A stretch of 29,927 nt of DNA from a virus. The stretch covers positions 1 to 29,927 of the IMG/VR virus record IMGVR_UViG_3300020034_000056, one strand, 5' to 3'. This document shows, piece by piece, positions 5,374 to 23,524 of the stretch (position 1 is the stretch's first letter; each line of letters starts with the position of its first letter). A program made the translations under genes and the position numbers. The notes below the pieces were generated by a model. That model searched no databases, was not told the origin of the DNA, and was given only the letters and a program-made list of their open reading frames with translations.

Positions 5374-6456
5374 CTAAGCAGCGGCTGGCGTCTGTGCAAG
5401 ACGCGCAAGATCACCGAGCACCGTGGCAGCCCTACGCTCCCATGACGCCACAGCCACACAGGCTGGAAGTTGTGCGGCCACACGCATGCGCCCGGCGTCA
5501 TCCGCCAGCCACAGACGTATCAAGGCCGCTGCCTCGGTTGGCGTGCGGAAGGTCGGCACCAGTTCGCCAAACACCTCCGGCACTTCCTTCCGGTAATCAC
5601 TCAGATGAAACGCTCCGACCGCCGCGAGTTCATACGCGCGCGGACTCAACGACTCCCCGTACACCGCCGTGCGCCGGCCCTCTCGGCTCCGCGAATACCC
5701 GCGATACAGATTCAGCCCGATCTTGGCGTTGCGATACAGTTCCGCCGCGTACTCGTTGCCAATCTGCGCCCCACGCACACAGCCGGTGAGTTGCTTCTTG
5801 AGCCCCAGACCCTTCCATGTGCCATACAGGCCTACATCGATCCCGGTCCAATCAATGCTATTGAACCAGTCGATGCGTTCGGCAAACCCTGACCCCACAA
5901 ACACCACGTCATGGGCCGGCACGGTGTCAGGCACTGGCCCAGCAATCGCATGACGCTCCGGATGCCAACCGTGCGGGAGATACCCGCTATTCGGATTCAC
6001 CGCTTTGAACGCTGGCACGGACGCCCGCTCGTTCGTCCAGCAACCATCCACCATCGCGGCAATCTTCAACTCGGCCTCAAGGTCGTACGGACTCTCCGTG
6101 AAGAGCACTACCACCTTCAGCCCCGCCTGTTTCATCATCGCGATGACGGCGGGATGCATGAACATGGCGCTCACCACGAACACCACATGCACCTTGTGAC
6201 GCAGCGCCATTTCCAGCGCGCCCACGCTGGCCTGATACAGCACGTCGCCGTGTGACGGCTTCTCGAGGTCTGGCCGGCTCTTCTTTTGCTGACGCCAGCG
6301 CGCATACAGATGCTTGCTCTCAAGAGCAATCCGCTCATCCAGTCGGAAGTGCACCAGATCGACCTTGTGGTACTTCAGGCCGTAACTCAGGCCCGCCCAC
6401 ACATCCGCAGTCGACCAAGATGCGCCTGGGTGCGCGAGTAAAATACGGAGGTTCAT
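5374..6456 (-). CDS. GT-B glycosyltransferase, CgeB / Glycos_transf_1_2-like
   Basis: A 360-residue protein with a GT-B layout. The N-terminal half contains RILLAHPGASWSTADVW, HVVFVVSAMFMHPAVIA and KVVVLFTESPYDLEAE, a Rossmann-type strand series. The C-terminal half has a NSGYLPHGWHPERH linker, DVVFVGSGFAERIDW, and a donor-binding region YGESLSPRAYELAAVGAFHL then DYRKEVPEVFG, typical of the CgeB/Glyco_trans_1_2 family. It probably transfers an activated sugar, but acceptor and donor cannot be read. The start overlaps the preceding tiny zinc-ribbon gene (ATGA), making it the last gene of an insertion (GT2, radical SAM, zinc ribbon, this gene) in the tail module just before the tail tube. A role in glycosylating virion or host-surface material is inference. 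Confidence 0.85.
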   Translation of the reverse strand: MNLRILLAHPGASWSTADVWAGLSYGLKYHKVDLVHFRLDERIALESKHLYARWRQQKKSRPDLEKPSHGDVLYQASVGALEMALRHKVHVVFVVSAMFMHPAVIAMMKQAGLKVVVLFTESPYDLEAELKIAAMVDGCWTNERASVPAFKAVNPNSGYLPHGWHPERHAIAGPVPDTVPAHDVVFVGSGFAERIDWFNSIDWTGIDVGLYGTWKGLGLKKQLTGCVRGAQIGNEYAAELYRNAKIGLNLYRGYSRSREGRRTAVYGESLSPRAYELAAVGAFHLSDYRKEVPEVFGELVPTFRTPTEAAALIRLWLADDAGRMRVAAQLPACVAVASWERRAATVLGDLARLAQTPAAA

Positions 6457-6578
6457 TGCGGCCTATCCGGCTGCGTCCACTTCATCGGCCAGCTTGCCGG
6501 CGGCGAACAGAACACACAGCGGCCTTCGCCATCGGTATGCTCCGCGCGCACGAGACGACGACATTTGGTGCACGTCAT
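6453..6578 (-). CDS. Tiny zinc-ribbon protein (41 residues)
   Basis: The start ATG at 6578 overlaps the radical SAM stop (ATGA), and its own stop overlaps the glycosyltransferase start (ATGA), so it is locked between two enzymes. The peptide begins MTCTKCRRLVRAE and continues GEGRCVFCSPPASWP, giving a C-x2-C...C-x2-C pattern (residues 3, 6 and about 21, 24) that should bind one zinc ion. A longer in-frame version reaching 6773 lies inside the radical SAM gene in another frame and is rejected. The function is unknown; it could be a folding partner or adaptor for one of its neighbours. Confidence 0.7.
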   Translation of the reverse strand: MTCTKCRRLVRAEHTDGEGRCVFCSPPASWPMKWTQPDRPQ

Positions 6579-7648
6579 ACAAACGCCGCGTGCGCCACCG
6601 GCTGCGCAAGTTGGGCCAAAATCTCGTTCGACAGGTGCATGCGACACATCACCCGGCAGTCCGCGAAATCCGTCCACTGCCCTGGATGCTTCGCCCACAC
6701 CTGGGAGAAACTCTCCTTGGACAGATCGCCAATCTCTGAGCCTCTGACCCCTCGGCGCTGCTGGCAGACCCACACACGCCCGTCAGGCGTCACCGTGGTA
6801 GACAGCCTGATGCCTCGACATGCGTCGTACCCATGGCCAGACCAATCGCGGTACTTGATGAACCGTTCCACGTCGAGTTCCACATCGGTGTCATGGGACA
6901 CCGAGGCCAGCATCGGCAGGGCGGCCGTAATCCAGCCACGGTAATCCGTGGTCTTCGATGGCCGATCAGGGCTCGTATGAATGGCCGGCCGAAACGTGGC
7001 ATAGGTCGCACCAAGCGAACGCGCCAGCGTCAACATCTCCCGCGTGCGCTTCCAGTTGTCCTTGTGCAGCAGGAACGACACGCCCACCGCCGCATGCTTG
7101 GCCGCCACGAGATACCGGATGCCGTCACAGGCCTTCCGGAACCGTTCCGCCAGCACACCCTTCTCGGCCGCGTAGGTCTCCGCGTCAGGACAATCGAGGC
7201 TCACAACTACCCACGTCGCCAGAGACCCCAGCACCAAGGCACTCGGCTCATCCAGCAGTCCACCAAGGGTGTACATCCCCTGCTGCAGCGCCATGCTGTC
7301 GGCGTACCGCACCATGTCCAGCCACTGCGGATGCGTCGTCGGTTCTCCACCGCCGCTCCACACGATCGACTGCACGCCCGCGCTGGACATCTCACGCAAC
7401 GCACGCGTGACCACGGATGGATCGGCCAGATCGCCTCCGGAGTCGTAGGCCATCGGCAACTTCCGGTCCTTCACCATCCATGGCCCGCGCGTATGCGTGT
7501 GGGCGAAATGGCAATCCTGGCAGCCAAGGACGCAGCGGTTCGACAGATCCCATTCCACCGTCACTGGCGCTGGCTTGTGGCCGCGATTCCAGTCCACCAG
7601 GCGATCCATGTGGGCCAATGTTTTGGCCTGCGGGTTAATGAAGTTCAC
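6575..7648 (-). CDS. Radical SAM enzyme with SPASM-like C-terminus
   Basis: A 357-residue protein. The radical SAM cluster motif C-x3-C-x2-C is at residues 39, 43 and 46 (SNRCVLGCQDCHFAH), preceded by a strand VTVEWDLSNRC as usual. A GGGEP-type SAM-binding motif (WSGGGEPTTHP) follows. The C-terminal region has more cysteines (DACRGIRLS, VWVCQQ, DCRVMCRMH), as in SPASM domains that hold auxiliary iron-sulfur clusters. Such enzymes modify peptides, sugars or cofactors by radical chemistry. I chose GTG at 7648 because it overlaps the GT2 stop (GTGA), whereas the longer frame would overlap that gene by 61 bases. Neighbours are two glycosyltransferases, so the substrate may be a glycan, nucleotide sugar or virion protein; this is not readable. 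Confidence 0.9.
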   Translation of the reverse strand: MNFINPQAKTLAHMDRLVDWNRGHKPAPVTVEWDLSNRCVLGCQDCHFAHTHTRGPWMVKDRKLPMAYDSGGDLADPSVVTRALREMSSAGVQSIVWSGGGEPTTHPQWLDMVRYADSMALQQGMYTLGGLLDEPSALVLGSLATWVVVSLDCPDAETYAAEKGVLAERFRKACDGIRYLVAAKHAAVGVSFLLHKDNWKRTREMLTLARSLGATYATFRPAIHTSPDRPSKTTDYRGWITAALPMLASVSHDTDVELDVERFIKYRDWSGHGYDACRGIRLSTTVTPDGRVWVCQQRRGVRGSEIGDLSKESFSQVWAKHPGQWTDFADCRVMCRMHLSNEILAQLAQPVAHAAFV

Positions 7649-8196
7649 GCCGCCGCCTCGGCCCGCCCGTGGCTCACCGCCCCACACAGGAACAGCACAT
7701 CGCACACCGCCGCCTGATGACCAGCGTTGAACAACGCCTGCGCGTGGTCGAAGTCGCCCTCGTAGCGCGTGCCGTAATCCTTCGCGTGGACCTTCCAGAC
7801 GTCCGCGCGCGTGATGATGCAGCCCAAGTCAATGGCGCCTAGCCGCGGCGGCCACGGATCCCCAACCGGCAACATGCCGTGATGCCCTTTGATCACGTTG
7901 ACGATCACGACAGCCGGAGACCCATTCACATCGGCAAACGCCTTGACCTGCTCCACGACGGTCGGATCGGCCAGCACATCATCGTCAGCGAGGAAGTGCA
8001 CATACCGCCCATGAACGGCATCCGCGTAGTCATGAACCTTGGCGTACATGCCGCCAATGCCAAGCCCGACGTGATCGGGAATGACGATGTGCTCGATCTC
8101 TGACGCGATGGTCTGCCGACCCACGCTCTCGAGACAGGCCGCCAAGCCCTTCGGTCTGCGGAAAGTGGGCGTGTACAGCGTGATAAATGGCTTCAC
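7645..8196 (-). CDS. GT2-like (GT-A fold) glycosyltransferase
   Basis: A 183-residue protein beginning MKPFITLYTPTFRRPKGLAA, the classical N-terminal strand of family 2 glycosyltransferases with the nucleotide-binding T-x-x-R pattern. A DDD motif at residues 71-73 (VHFLADDDVL) matches the metal-binding DXD. The protein is shorter than typical GT2 enzymes (about 230-300 residues) but covers the nucleotide-binding core, and has an acceptor-side segment KDYGTRYEGDFDHAQALF. The GTG start at 8196 overlaps the preceding small gene (GTGA); a longer frame to 8271 lies inside that gene and was not used. It is first of the three enzymes in the tail-module modification cassette. Confidence 0.85.
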   Translation of the reverse strand: MKPFITLYTPTFRRPKGLAACLESVGRQTIASEIEHIVIPDHVGLGIGGMYAKVHDYADAVHGRYVHFLADDDVLADPTVVEQVKAFADVNGSPAVVIVNVIKGHHGMLPVGDPWPPRLGAIDLGCIITRADVWKVHAKDYGTRYEGDFDHAQALFNAGHQAAVCDVLFLCGAVSHGRAEAAA

Positions 8197-8363
8197 GACT
8201 GACCCCGAAACAGAGCGTTTGCGACAAGGGTCGGCTTGAAGCCTTTGCAGTCTCGGCACTGATACAAGCACACGTCTCCGTGGAAATACGGCTCGTACTC
8301 ATGCCGTCTCCCGCCCTCAGAGCAGGGCGTTCGCAGCTGCCGCCACCATGTGCGCAATCGCAT
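8193..8363 (-). CDS. Small cysteine-containing protein (56 residues), unknown function
   Basis: The start ATG at 8363 overlaps the preceding stop codon (TGATG). The peptide begins MRLRTWWRQLRTPCS and contains CLYQCRDCKGFKP near the C-terminus. With the Cys at residue 14 this makes a possible zinc-binding cluster. The sequence style (His-Glu-Tyr followed by C-x3-C-x2-C) resembles small phage proteins of unknown role. It is translationally coupled on both sides and lies directly before the GT2 gene. I cannot assign a function. Confidence 0.6.
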   Translation of the reverse strand: MRLRTWWRQLRTPCSEGGRRHEYEPYFHGDVCLYQCRDCKGFKPTLVANALFRGQS

Positions 8364-12621: not shown

Positions 12622-12765
12622 ATGGCGGCAAAGATTCGATTAGATGGATGGCGCTGCGAACGCTGCAGCCACGAATGGGTGCCTCGCCGACGCGTCGTTC
12701 CTGAGGTCTGCCCCAAGTGCAAGTCTCCGTATTGGAAGCGACCGAGAAAGAAGGCCAGAACTTAA
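12622..12765 (+). CDS. Small zinc-ribbon protein (47 residues)
   Basis: It begins MAAKIRLDGWRCERCSHEWV and has a second knuckle EVCPKCKSPYW. C-x2-C at residues 12 and 15 and C-x2-C at 30 and 33 give a standard four-cysteine zinc ribbon, followed by a basic C-terminus (KRPRKKART) that could bind nucleic acid. It resembles small zinc ribbons seen in many bacterial and phage genomes with unknown or regulatory roles. I chose the ATG at 12622, preceded by GGAGACTCA; a longer frame from 12547 would run through the promoter-like region. First gene of the plus-strand cassette; repeat array A starts directly after its stop codon. Confidence 0.75.
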   Translation: MAAKIRLDGWRCERCSHEWVPRRRVVPEVCPKCKSPYWKRPRKKART

Positions 12766-12845
12766 CCCGGCGCTGCGCAGCAAGGCGTGACGCGGCTCGT
12801 CTGGGCATGGCTGGGCATGGCGCGGCTGCACAACGCAAGACAAGG
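12766..12845 (+). repeat. Pentameric CNNGN array A (16 units)
   Basis: Starting at the base after the zinc-ribbon stop codon, the sequence divides into 16 exact 5-base units. All 16 begin with C, and 12 have G at the fourth position (for example CAAGG, CGTGA, CATGG, CTGGG, CATGG, CGCGG). The last two units are CAAGA and CAAGG; the final AAGG plus the following AG forms a Shine-Dalgarno sequence nine bases before the next ATG. There is no open frame. The other two positions vary freely, so ordinary tandem-repeat scanning could miss it. Confidence 0.85.
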
Positions 12846-12856
12846 AGTTTTCACAA

Positions 12857-13441
12857 ATGAGAGTAGCAACCGCAGAACTGGAAAGCATTTCCCCGTATTC
12901 ACAGAGCAAGGCGTACACGAAAGACGAATTCCCCATGCTAGGACGCGCCACCGGCACGTCAACCGAGAGCACGGCGGACTACGAGAAACGCACATGGCGT
13001 GAGCGGTGCCACTACGGCCCAGACGGTCACGTCGTGATGCCGCCAATGGCGTTCAAGAACTGCATCTCTGAGATCGCTAAGTACCTCAGCGTGCAAATTC
13101 CAGGCAAGGGCAAGAGCACGTACACGAAACACTTCGAGGCCGGCGTCATGGTCCTTGATGGCTTGCCACTGCCAGTCACGAAGGACACCATTTCAGGGGA
13201 ATGGCTGTTCGTCCCTGGCGACGGGCGCCGCGGCGGCGGCAAGCGGGTGTGGAAATGCTTTCCCGTCGTGCGTGAGTGGAAAGGCGATGTGACATTCCAT
13301 GTCATCGACGACGTCATCACGCAGGCAGTTTTCGAACAGCACCTCAAAGAAGCAGGCAACTTCATCGGGATCGGCCGGTTCCGTCCGCGCAACAATGGGT
13401 ACTACGGGCGGTTCAAGGTCAACAAGGTGAAGTGGGGCTGA
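12857..13441 (+). CDS. Unknown phage protein with RAMP/Cas7-like features (194 residues)
   Basis: It begins MRVATAELESISPYSQSKAY. A segment VVMPPMAFKNCISEIAKYLS (59-78) is followed by IPGKGKSTYT (81-90) and the strand AGVMVLDGLPLPV. A later strand pair (VWKCFPVVREW, VTFHVIDDVIT) leads to a helix and a Gly-rich C-terminal loop, FIGIGRFRPRNNGYYGRFKV (169-188). A first strand, the P-x-x-x-F-K-x-x-x-x-x-x helix, and a C-terminal G-x-G-x-F-R-P...G-x-Y-G-R-F loop recall the RAMP superfamily (Cas7/Cas5/Csm3-like RNA-binding folds). I also recognise it loosely as a conserved hypothetical phage protein. The RAMP link is inference from pattern only. A good Shine-Dalgarno (AAGGAG) is supplied by the end of array A; array B follows the stop codon. 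Confidence 0.8.
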   Translation: MRVATAELESISPYSQSKAYTKDEFPMLGRATGTSTESTADYEKRTWRERCHYGPDGHVVMPPMAFKNCISEIAKYLSVQIPGKGKSTYTKHFEAGVMVLDGLPLPVTKDTISGEWLFVPGDGRRGGGKRVWKCFPVVREWKGDVTFHVIDDVITQAVFEQHLKEAGNFIGIGRFRPRNNGYYGRFKVNKVKWG

Positions 13442-13443
13442 AT

Positions 13444-13558
13444 CGCGGCGGGGTAAGGCATGACGTGGCGAGGCCTGACGCAGCGAGTCAAGGCGCAGCT
13501 AGGCAGGTCACGACTCAGCTGGACCGGACTCGACAAGACACGGCATCACAAGACAAGG
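13444..13558 (+). repeat. Pentameric CNNGN array B (23 units)
   Basis: From two bases after the stop codon of the RAMP-like gene there are 23 consecutive 5-base units; 22 begin with C (one with T) and 19 have G at position four. Examples in order near the end: CTGGA, CCGGA, CTCGA, CAAGA, CACGG, CATCA, CAAGA, CAAGG. As in array A the last unit is CAAGG, and it provides the ribosome binding sequence (AAGGA, then TTTTT, then ATG) of the next gene. No coding frame is convincing through it. Confidence 0.85.
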
Positions 13559-13564
13559 ATTTTT

Positions 13565-14071
13565 ATGCAAGCAGAGAAGCGCGCGATTCCAGAACTATCC
13601 GTAGACACGCAGGTTCTTGAGCGCCTGCTGATGACCATCGACGTCGGAGGCGTCATCTCCTACCACATGATGACGGCCGCCATCGGACGCGACGTCCAAG
13701 CCGATGGACGCCACATTATGGACAGCGCGCGCGAGCGCGTGCGCCGTCTCAATCAGGCAGTCTTTGAACCTGTCACCGACGTCGGCCTGAAGCGCCTCGA
13801 TGACATCGGGATCATTGGGCTCGGCCCGATGACACGGCATCGTATCGAACGAATGGCCCGCAAGGGCCGCGCGAAGCTCGCCTGCGTACAGGACTTCGAT
13901 GCGCTCCCGAATGCGATGAAGATTGAGCACAATACGTCGATGGCCCAACTCGGCGCCGTGCAGCACTTCTCGTCAGAGCGCACGGCTAAGAAGTTGAGCA
14001 CCAACTTGACGACTCCACAAAAGGATATGCCCCTTCGTCAATGCCTCAAGGCGATGGAGGGATTGGTCTAA
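13565..14071 (+). CDS. Unknown phage protein, possible winged-helix DNA binder (168 residues)
   Basis: It begins MQAEKRAIPELSVDTQVLER. The segment LLMTIDVGGVISYHMMTAAI followed by GRDVQADGRHIMDSARERV (about residues 21-59) looks like a winged or helix-turn-helix unit: a short strand-turn GGVISY, a helix, then a longer basic recognition-like helix. The C-terminal half has basic helices (RHRIERMARKGRAK) and a Ser/Gln-rich end. I do not recognise a named family. The ATG at 13565 is preceded by AAGGATTTTT; the longer frame to 13460 would translate the repeat array and is rejected. Third and last gene of the plus-strand cassette; repeat array C starts three bases after its stop. Confidence 0.75.
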   Translation: MQAEKRAIPELSVDTQVLERLLMTIDVGGVISYHMMTAAIGRDVQADGRHIMDSARERVRRLNQAVFEPVTDVGLKRLDDIGIIGLGPMTRHRIERMARKGRAKLACVQDFDALPNAMKIEHNTSMAQLGAVQHFSSERTAKKLSTNLTTPQKDMPLRQCLKAMEGLV

Positions 14072-14074
14072 GCA

Positions 14075-14144
14075 CTTGACGCGTCAAGGCGCGTCATGGC
14101 AAGCCTAGGCGACGCGCGGCGGGTCACGGCAGGACAGGACAAGG
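14075..14144 (+). repeat. Pentameric CNNGN array C (14 units)
   Basis: Fourteen units, all beginning with C and 13 with G at position four (CTTGA, CGCGT, CAAGG, CGCGT, CATGG, and so on to CACGG, CAGGA, CAGGA, CAAGG). It starts three bases after the last cassette gene. Its first units form a perfect 14-bp palindrome (CTTGACGCGTCAAG, 14075-14088). It ends in CAAGG like the other arrays, but no plus-strand gene follows; instead GCACTACCGCA comes next, identical to the flank of array D. Confidence 0.85.
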
Positions 14145-14155
14145 GCACTACCGCA
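14138..14155 (+). repeat. 18-bp direct repeat, copy 1 (GACAAGGGCACTACCGCA)
   Basis: GACAAGGGCACTACCGCA occurs here and again, identical, at 14237-14254. It spans the end of a pentamer array plus 11 flanking bases. In the second copy the flank contains the stop codon of the minus-strand ribbon-helix-helix gene; here no gene ends at that point, so this copy looks like a duplicated or stranded gene end. Confidence 0.8.
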
Positions 14156-14168
14156 ATCATATTCTCTA

Positions 14169-14243
14169 CAGCGCCAGACTGCGCGCGGCAGGGCTCGCCT
14201 GGGCAAGACGCCTCGTGATGAGGCTAGACGACGCAAGACAAGG
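14169..14243 (+). repeat. Pentameric CNNGN array D (15 units)
   Basis: Fifteen units; 14 begin with C and 11 have G at position four (for instance CGCGG, CAGGG, CTCGC, CTGGG, CAAGA, CGTGA, CTAGA, CAAGA, CAAGG). It is separated from array C by only 24 bases that contain no gene, as if a gene between two arrays had been lost or an array duplicated. It ends three bases before the stop codon of the convergent ribbon-helix-helix gene and contains a small hairpin (GCCTC-GTGAT-GAGGC, 14210-14224) without a T-run. Confidence 0.8.
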
Positions 14244-14254
14244 GCACTACCGCA
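14237..14254 (+). repeat. 18-bp direct repeat, copy 2
   Basis: Second identical copy of GACAAGGGCACTACCGCA, 99 bases from the first. It includes the end of array D and the last codon and stop codon of the ribbon-helix-helix gene on the minus strand. Confidence 0.8.
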
Positions 14255-14456
14255 CAGAGACGGTCCGGTCGAACACCCGCCGCTCTGCGTAATCAGACAC
14301 GAATTCGTTGATGGCTTCGCGCACGATCGCCGCCATCGCGAGACCCGATTCGTCGGACATGCTCCGGAGTTGGGCTTTCTCGTCGTCGGTGAGATAGAAC
14401 CAGAGCTTGGCTGACGAGTTCTGGCCGGAAATGCGTGGGCGCCTACCTCTAGACAT
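14247..14456 (-). CDS. Ribbon-helix-helix (CopG/Arc-type) DNA-binding protein
   Basis: A 69-residue protein with a basic N-terminus (MSRGRRPRISGQNS), a strand SAKLWFYLTDDEKAQLRSMS, a Gly-turn (DESGLAMAAIV) and a second helix REAINEFVSDY. The strand-helix-turn-helix with A-x-I-V-R-E-A-I is the classic ribbon-helix-helix fold, which binds DNA as a dimer and usually represses nearby promoters. I chose the ATG at 14456 rather than the longer frame to 14540, which lies inside the neighbouring gene. It overlaps the upstream gene by eight bases. Sitting at the border of the plus-strand cassette, it is a candidate regulator of that cassette or of the head genes. Confidence 0.8.
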   Translation of the reverse strand: MSRGRRPRISGQNSSAKLWFYLTDDEKAQLRSMSDESGLAMAAIVREAINEFVSDYAERRVFDRTVSVR

Positions 14457-21073: not shown

Positions 21074-23524
21074 TCAGGCCGGCCCCCATGGAGTCGCCAG
21101 GCCATCACCAGTCAACGTGGTTCCGTTGATTTTGGTGACATTGACACCAGCCGTGATGTGCGAATGCAGATCAGACGTCATGGCTGACAGCTGCGAATCG
21201 GTCGCCACGCGCTTGGGGACTCTCGACTGGAAATCTGATTGCAAATCGCTCAGAGACGAATACGCATCCGACAGCACGCCACTCATCACCCCAATGTCTG
21301 AATGGGCATCGCTCAACAGGCTGTAGATGTCGCTGGCCTGCGATTGCACCAGCAGCAAGCGGCTATTGCCCTGCAAGACTCGGCTATTGGCCTGAGCCGC
21401 GGCCGAATGCGCATCGGAGAGCATGCCCGACAATCCCAGAATGGCTGACCGGATGTCTGACAGGGTCGACGCATCGAGACCCACGCCTTGGGCCGCAATC
21501 GCGGCAACAACGGCCGAAGCAATATCGGACAGGGCGGAAGCGTCCAGACCCGTCGCCCCAGCCGTGATGGCGCTCCTCAGGTCGGAGAGGCTCGAGGCAT
21601 TCAGGCCCACCCCTGTCGTGGTCATGAAGCTGAGCAAATTCGACTCGACGTCAGACAATTTGCTCTGGGTGTCACTCACCATCGACTGCGTGACCAGAAT
21701 CCGGCTGTTCGCTTGTGCTGCCGCACTGTGGGCATCCGACAACATCCCCGACAGACCCAGGATGGCTGAGCGAATATCACTCATGGTGGACGCGTCCAGG
21801 CCTACCCCCTGAGCCGCGATCGCCGCCACCACCGCCGAGGCAATGTCGCTCAAGGCCGAGGCGTCCAGACCGGTGGCGCCTGCGGTGATCGCTGAACGCA
21901 GGTCCGACAGCGCCGAGGCGTTGAGCCCCACCCCGGTGGTCGTCAGGAAACTCAGTAAGTTGCTCTCGACGTCCGACAACTTCGATTGCAGATCCGACGT
22001 CATCGAGTTGCCCAACAACACACGGCTATTCGCCTGGGCGGCAGCCGAATGGGCATCCGACAACATGGCCGACAGCGACAAGACCGCAGACCGGATGTCG
22101 CTCATGGTCGACGCATCAAGCCCCACGCCTTGCGCGGCAATAGCGGCCACGACGGCTGAGGCGATGTCACTGAGCGCTGAGGCATCCAGACCCGTCGCGC
22201 CGGCCGTAATGGCACTTCTGAGATCGGAGAGGCTCGAGGCGTTGAGCTGTACACCCGTGGTGCCGATCACACTGAGCAGGTTGCTCTCCACGTCCGAGAG
22301 CTTGCTTTGCGTGTCGCTCACCATCGATTGCACCACCAGCACACGCGAATTCGCTTGGGCGGCGGCACTGTGCGCATCAGAGGCGAGGGATTGCCCCAGC
22401 AAGACTGCACTCTTGACGTCTGAGGCTAGATCCGACAATTGGCTGTTCGTGGCCACCAATTTGGGGACACGAGACTGGAAATCACTCTGGAGGTCGCTGA
22501 GATGCGAGCGGATGTCGGATAGGTAACTCTGGCCCACCAACACCCGCGAATCGACCCGTGCGCCAATCGCATTCGCCCACACCGCTGAGGCAATGTCCGA
22601 GATATTGGAGACTGTGACCGTCGTCACCCCGGCCGCCACCGCTGAGGCAATATCACTGATGTCTGAGGCGGACAGCGTGACCGTGATGGCTCCTACCGCT
22701 GACTTCACATCACTGGCGAGATCCGACAGTTGGGAGCTCGTCGCCACGAGCTTGGGCACCCGTGACTGGAAATCCGACTGCAGATCGCTGAGGTGCGACC
22801 GGATGTCCGAGAGGTAGCTTTGCCCGATCAGCACACGACTGTTCGTCTGGGCGATCAACGAATACAGGTCGCTGACGTCTGACACCATCAGGGCATACAC
22901 CGCAGAGGCGATGTCGCTGATGTTGGAAACAGAGATCGTCGCCGTCACCCCCGCCACGGCTGACTTGACGTCAGAGGCGAGGTCGGACAACTGCGAATTG
23001 GTGGCCACCAATTTGGGGACTCGACTCTGGAAGTCCGACTGCAGATCGCTGATGTGGGAGCGGATGTCTGACAGCACGCTCTGGGCAAGCAACACACGAC
23101 TGTTCGTCTGCACCGCCGCGCTGGCCGCATCAGAGGCCGCCGACTGCGTCAGCAACAGCCGAGACATCAGCGTGCTTTCGTCAATCACCCCTTCAGCGAC
23201 CAAGGTCTGATACGCCGCACCAGTCGCCGAGAGGCTGATGATGTACTGGTCGTACCACGCCGCCGAGGCATCTGACAGATCGGCTTTGGCGAGCGCAATC
23301 GTGTAGAGCCCCAGCACCGAGGCGCCCACATGCGTGATGTCGTTCGTGAGCGAGCCCGTACCACTGGTGACGAAGTTCGTGCCCGTCGCCCCGCGCAGCT
23401 TGCCATAGACCTTGATCTTGGTGGCCGCCGACAGCGCACTTTCTGGCGTGGCGAAGTCGGTCGCGTCGACCATCATCCACGTGAGATGGTTGTTGGTTCG
23501 ACCCTTGAATAAACGTTGGCTCAT
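21074..23524 (-). CDS. Tail fibre-like protein with 107-residue tandem repeats (816 residues)
   Basis: Residues 1-115 form an N-terminal beta domain (LTWMMVDATDFATPESALSA, IKVYGKLRGATGTNF, HVGASVLGLYTIAL, AAWYDQYIISL), a domain I recognise at the start of phage fibres. The rest is a Ser/Asp/Ala-rich rod with the recurring motif S-D-(I/L/A)-x-S. A first repeat type, SDIRSHLSDLQSDFQSRVPK, appears at about residues 152, 239, 336 and (partly) 759. A second type of exactly 107 residues is tandem: 382-488, 489-595, 596-702, with a partial fourth from 703. Such heptad-like Ser/Asp/Ala repeats suggest a trimeric coiled rod. The start overlaps the methyltransferase stop by four bases (ATGA). Confidence 0.85.
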   Translation of the reverse strand: MSQRLFKGRTNNHLTWMMVDATDFATPESALSAATKIKVYGKLRGATGTNFVTSGTGSLTNDITHVGASVLGLYTIALAKADLSDASAAWYDQYIISLSATGAAYQTLVAEGVIDESTLMSRLLLTQSAASDAASAAVQTNSRVLLAQSVLSDIRSHISDLQSDFQSRVPKLVATNSQLSDLASDVKSAVAGVTATISVSNISDIASAVYALMVSDVSDLYSLIAQTNSRVLIGQSYLSDIRSHLSDLQSDFQSRVPKLVATSSQLSDLASDVKSAVGAITVTLSASDISDIASAVAAGVTTVTVSNISDIASAVWANAIGARVDSRVLVGQSYLSDIRSHLSDLQSDFQSRVPKLVATNSQLSDLASDVKSAVLLGQSLASDAHSAAAQANSRVLVVQSMVSDTQSKLSDVESNLLSVIGTTGVQLNASSLSDLRSAITAGATGLDASALSDIASAVVAAIAAQGVGLDASTMSDIRSAVLSLSAMLSDAHSAAAQANSRVLLGNSMTSDLQSKLSDVESNLLSFLTTTGVGLNASALSDLRSAITAGATGLDASALSDIASAVVAAIAAQGVGLDASTMSDIRSAILGLSGMLSDAHSAAAQANSRILVTQSMVSDTQSKLSDVESNLLSFMTTTGVGLNASSLSDLRSAITAGATGLDASALSDIASAVVAAIAAQGVGLDASTLSDIRSAILGLSGMLSDAHSAAAQANSRVLQGNSRLLLVQSQASDIYSLLSDAHSDIGVMSGVLSDAYSSLSDLQSDFQSRVPKRVATDSQLSAMTSDLHSHITAGVNVTKINGTTLTGDGLATPWGPA
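21419..22381 (-). repeat. Three tandem 107-codon repeats inside the fibre gene
   Basis: Units run 22381-22061, 22060-21740 and 21739-21419 (321 bases each), each starting at SDAHSAAAQANSR. Their proteins are nearly identical, but the DNA differs by about one base in four in a stretch where the encoded residues are the same, including switches between TCN and AGY serine codons. Confidence 0.8.

Follow-up and report, generated by a model that had tools for sequence, protein, structure and literature searches.

What is the purpose of four non-coding stretches of DNA which, around two genes of a phage, divide into units of exactly five bases? The question is raised by the window, that is, the whole 29,927-nucleotide stretch analysed here (IMG/VR record IMGVR_UViG_3300020034_000056). 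Elsewhere in the window, an 816-aa ORF (21074-23524, -) is composed of repeats within the protein, SDIASAV and QSYLSDIRSHLSDLQSDFQSRVPKLVAT among them, and probably encodes a fibre or coiled-coil protein, while glycosyltransferase-like and radical-SAM-like ORFs, named from their translations only, lie among phage structural genes (5374-8271, -).

The point of reference is VIPR, first reported in a preprint of April 2026 (PMC13142463, doi 10.64898/2026.04.26.720920), a system in which phages encode a CRISPR-like, RNA-guided means of binding DNA. Its components are Vipr, which is an ancestral RAMP, the accessory gene vap, and vrRNAs that are formed from 9-16 YNNGG repeats followed by an invariable 3' tail (PMC13142463). 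The NN bases of the vrRNA bind double-stranded DNA with one target base skipped per unit, by which rival mobile elements are repressed, and some VIPR types use "a related consensus" instead of GGY (PMC13142463). The model phage is Escherichia phage SUSP1 (type II, record KT454805), which has one array upstream and three arrays downstream of vipr (PMC13142463).

Anatomy of the pentanucleotide arrays

Array A (12766..12845, +), a predicted vrRNA gene with 16 units of the form CNNGN, directly precedes the vipr gene (12857..13441, +), and array B (13444..13558, +), with 23 units, directly follows it. The vap-like gene (13565..14071, +) comes next and is followed by array C (14075..14144, +) with 14 units and array D (14169..14243, +) with 15, which brings the total to 68. 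The original prediction had counted C at position 1 in 66 of the 68 units and G at position 4 in 55, and a recount gives exactly the same numbers. All four arrays close with CAAGG, the preceding unit being CAAGA in A, B and D and CAGGA in C. As had also been noted, the first three arrays start close to the preceding stop codon (A 0, B 2 and C 3 nt after it), and arrays A and B supply the ribosome-binding sites of vipr and the vap-like gene, respectively, by running into GGAG/GGA just before the ATG. The only tail-like element at the window arrays is the short sequence GCACTACCGCA behind array C (14145..14155, +), which recurs in identical form behind array D (14244..14254, +). Two small ORFs adjoin the arrays: one of about 47 aa (12622-12765, +), zinc-ribbon-like with two CxxC pairs, lies directly before array A and has a similar counterpart before the array of the related locus L001, and another (14247-14450, -), ribbon-helix-helix-like by its reading, is convergent with array D.

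The fixed core of the unit is the triplet G-R-C, formed by positions 4 and 5 and the next position 1, which leaves positions 2 and 3 to the variable pair NN. Near-identical repeats of some 20-50 bp with unique spacers, as in CRISPR, were not found in the arrays, the fixed part being 3 nt per 5-nt unit; the reading of the arrays as non-coding and as neither CRISPR nor ordinary tandem repeats is upheld. Their scan scores are 35.5, 26, 24 and 19.5, while the fifth-best place in the window reaches 10; when the whole window was simulated 200 times with Markov models of orders 1 and 4, the maximum was 15. The shuffled sequences of equal composition against which the prediction was to be measured do not come near the observed count of C at position 1 and G at position 4, which is 121 of 136 compared with a mean of 57 and a maximum of 73 in 2,000 composition-preserving shuffles. 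Run over 1.35 Mb of other viral DNA, the array motif of the window gave 3 calls.

Vipr, its neighbour and the related loci

The 194-aa product of vipr matches phrog_4652, a family of unknown function, and no Pfam family was found for it in the family libraries. An AlphaFold2 model built on an alignment of 66 sequences has a pLDDT of 92.9 and a pTM of 0.86. The top PDB matches of this model in Foldseek (best E 4.7e-8) are Cas7 subunits of the type VII CRISPR complex, followed by subunits of the type III Csm (Csm3) and Cmr complexes, and VIA-align gives a Z of 11.7 over 155 residues against a Csm complex subunit. From the model and these matches it follows that Vipr, judged by its predicted fold, is a RAMP of the Cas7 kind.

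No homologues of Vipr were detected by tblastn in phage or plasmid records; the SUSP1 protein is too distant for such a search and needed a profile. The Vipr profile of the window matches SUSP1 ALH47069.1 with an E of 1.5e-12, and the profile of the vap-like protein (168 aa) matches ALH47068.1, encoded by the gene adjoining vipr in SUSP1, with an E of 1.5e-8. For the vap-like protein itself, the family libraries returned just a sub-threshold match and a single-sequence structure model was not usable (pLDDT 34). A scan of SUSP1 finds four TNNGG arrays, one upstream and three downstream of vipr, in agreement with the published description. The window thus contains a homologue of the SUSP1 RAMP, a minimal locus of vipr with a vap gene, and pentanucleotide arrays of a triplet plus NN beside vipr, here with GRC as the triplet and conserved in relatives. 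Since the SUSP1 Vipr and its neighbour match the profiles of the window and the SUSP1 arrays are found as described in PMC13142463, the window is almost certainly a VIPR locus and a new member of this system; its type, which is inferred, is probably II.

The relatives of vipr come from viral contigs (7 loci and 80 loci, with some contigs in both sets) and 4 bacterial genomes; the set includes loci that are almost duplicates of each other. Homologues of the vap-like gene are present in 81 of 89 loci. When no motif is assumed, the 160 nt flanking the gene on each side show an identity of 0.36-0.41 at lags of 5, 10, 15 and 20, other lags giving about 0.25; at more than 2 kb from the gene, and in unrelated viral contigs, lag-5 identity is 0.255. 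A flank with a lag-5 identity of at least 0.40 occurs in 61 of 88 loci compared with about 0.1% of background segments. The 5-base period therefore recurs beside the gene over 88 related loci and is gone farther away, and of 329 arrays, 328 are found no farther than 1.5 kb from vipr, which ties the arrays to this gene family. As the original prediction expected of related phages, the phase is retained while the other bases change.

When a cyclic five-state HMM is fitted locus by locus, three columns come out conserved and two variable. The dominant triplet is GGC in 42 loci, CGC in 11, GAC in 10, GGT in 4, AGT, GTC and CTC in 3 each, AAT in 2, and GTT, AGC and CAC in one each. Mapped onto the tree of Vipr proteins, the triplet changes 22 times, compared with 31.4 times for shuffled labels, and none of 200 shuffles is as low; the triplet thus goes with the protein phylogeny more closely than labels assigned at random. 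Among the relatives, AT-rich phages (L004, L005/L006 and L035) surround vipr with as many as 15 arrays in a row, whose AGT or AAT triplets are far from the GGY consensus, and L048 and L052 have seven successive CGC-NN arrays upstream of vipr. In L037 (4595-5946), the 3' flanks of the arrays have a common tail of about 35 nt (GGTTCTCATCAATGCTCCCACTACC...) which could be a conserved handle, and its GCxxCCCACTACC core resembles the GCACTACC tail of the window.

Function of the arrays and candidate targets

The arrays are very likely the vrRNA genes of a phage VIPR system, with Vipr-coated transcripts that would read DNA by means of the NN bases and repress rivals with the assistance of vap. In such a model, array A, vipr, array B, vap and arrays C and D would be read rightward, and Cas7-like Vipr subunits would assemble along the array transcript, one per 5-nt unit. 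Each subunit would grip the fixed G-R-C triplet and expose the variable dinucleotide, so that the row of dinucleotides could pair with double-stranded DNA as NN-x-NN-x, one target base being skipped per unit. Genes of competing phages, or of mobile elements of other kinds, would be repressed by this pairing, and the small vap protein would assist. The expression of vrRNAs, their binding by Vipr, the one-skip code and the repression are taken from PMC13142463, and it is by analogy with the work on SUSP1 that we infer expression, binding and targeting in the window phage, as well as the stoichiometry of one subunit per unit. The information-bearing part of the unit would be the two variable bases, and the substrate is most likely RNA. 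The suggested filament site of a protein comes close, in that a Cas7-like protein very probably lines up on the array, though most likely on RNA rather than on DNA.

Other readings of the arrays must be considered as well. In one of them, the main purpose of Vipr binding to the arrays in the mRNA is regulation or protection of the operon itself, and the variable bases hold no target information here. Arrays A and B do pass straight into the ribosome-binding sites of vipr and vap, and the fixed triplet by itself would suffice for binding, yet this reading is improbable; the related SUSP1 system targets DNA via the NN bases (PMC13142463), arrays C and D lead into no gene on their strand, and some relatives have seven or more successive arrays. 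A role of the arrays as DNA sites for a filament-forming protein that binds double-stranded DNA, for example in recombination or replication, is very improbable. It would draw on the fixed C and G of the window, which are nearly identical on both strands and to which the original prediction had given meaning. This symmetry is incidental because relatives carry GAC, CGC, CTC or AAT triplets, and lineage triplets such as GAC and CTC have no strand symmetry; moreover, the protein linked to the arrays is a Cas7-type RAMP, an RNA-binding fold. For the recombination substrate named in the original prediction nothing was found in support.

Slighter still is the prospect of structured RNA linkers or ribozyme arrays, a reading which takes its cue from the hammerhead-interspersed arrays of some VIPR types (PMC13142463). 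Folding of the four arrays reveals no excess structure (z-scores +1.06, -1.03, -0.59 and +1.33), which leaves the proposed structured mRNA linker unsupported; Rfam searches of the window and of 17 related loci came back empty, and neither folding nor Rfam detects a structured 3' tail at the window arrays. An artefact of chance or low complexity was considered since the unit is short and degenerate. Nothing was found in its favour, the array scores are far outside the simulations, and the period, whose absence was looked for, is present beside the same gene in 88 loci, which makes this explanation negligible.

For targets, exact eight-unit one-skip patterns were scanned against IMG/VR viral contigs. 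With the pattern of array D, 36 stretches were obtained, and at least 24 of them lie in genes with the ArdC-like motif YSTA(F/L)HEL; the three D-matched genes that were checked have the Pfam domains ArdcN and MPTase-PolyVal. These matches lie on the antisense strand of the gene, the skipped base falling on the wobble position of its codons, and units 2-12 of the array fit the conserved motif: in the contigs L153, L157 and L160, of which the latter two are alike, 11 consecutive units match at 22 of 22 specified bases. The match extends to at most 11 of the 15 units, and none of the 36 stretches fully matched unit 1 or unit 13. A unit-reversed control of D gave 8 stretches, and 398 bacterial genomes contained no match to a 13-unit version of the D pattern with up to 3 mismatches allowed. 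The pattern from the first half of array B, serving as a control, gave 105 stretches which stem from a common KIVELADK-like codon motif, with extension at chance level, and so cautions against relying on the number of matches. The other scans (A 11, second half of B 7, C 15 stretches) extend at or near chance, and no convincing targets for arrays A, B and C emerged from the one-skip scans of IMG/VR viral contigs. When the skip rule was tested for 282 arrays against 1.35 Mb, no usable excess was seen other than at loci fetched by the window's own scans. Because of these controls the match is only suggestive, and ardC as the target of array D is a lead from sequence comparison rather than a result.

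A further, tentative reading is that the many triplets read by the Vipr family (GGC, GAC, CGC, GTC, CTC, GGT, AGT, GTT, AAT and CAC) could, since the triplet goes with the protein tree, define mutually orthogonal guide systems and that the arrays in the operon of the window might double as 5' leaders with ribosome-binding sites. The translation of vipr and vap could then come under feedback from the maturation of guides or from the binding of Vipr.

Comparison with SUSP1 and with Class 1 CRISPR effectors

This kind of system has already been described (PMC13142463), and the contribution of this locus and the related ones lies in the range of triplets, in the layout of the operon and in one candidate target, although part of that range may already stand in the supplement of that paper. 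The VIPR architecture of a RAMP gene with 5-nt arrays was recovered independently from raw environmental sequence, some 80 loci with quantified triplet variants can be used to map how Vipr recognizes its guide, and the antirestriction gene ardC is a testable candidate target. The unusual parts are the diversity of triplets and the two arrays that run into ribosome-binding sites.

Both the window and SUSP1 represent phage-encoded systems with a homologous Vipr, an adjoining accessory gene and 5-nt units of a fixed triplet and a variable pair, with one array upstream of vipr and the others downstream. The SUSP1 arrays are mostly GGT, whereas those of the window are GRC with C as the Y. Unlike SUSP1, the window has an array between vipr and vap, its arrays A and B merge into ribosome-binding sites, and its only tail-like element is short and shows no fold; counted as units in the DNA, array B with 23 also exceeds the published 9-16 repeats, A, C and D having 16, 14 and 15. 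The Cas7 proteins of Class 1 CRISPR systems (type VII Cas7, Csm3) have the same fold over the whole Vipr protein, with a sequence identity of 6-19% in the listed matches. By contrast with these systems, the window is devoid of CRISPR repeats and spacers, and its 5-nt unit differs from the 6-nt step of Class 1 effectors, in which every sixth position is disrupted (PMC13142463).
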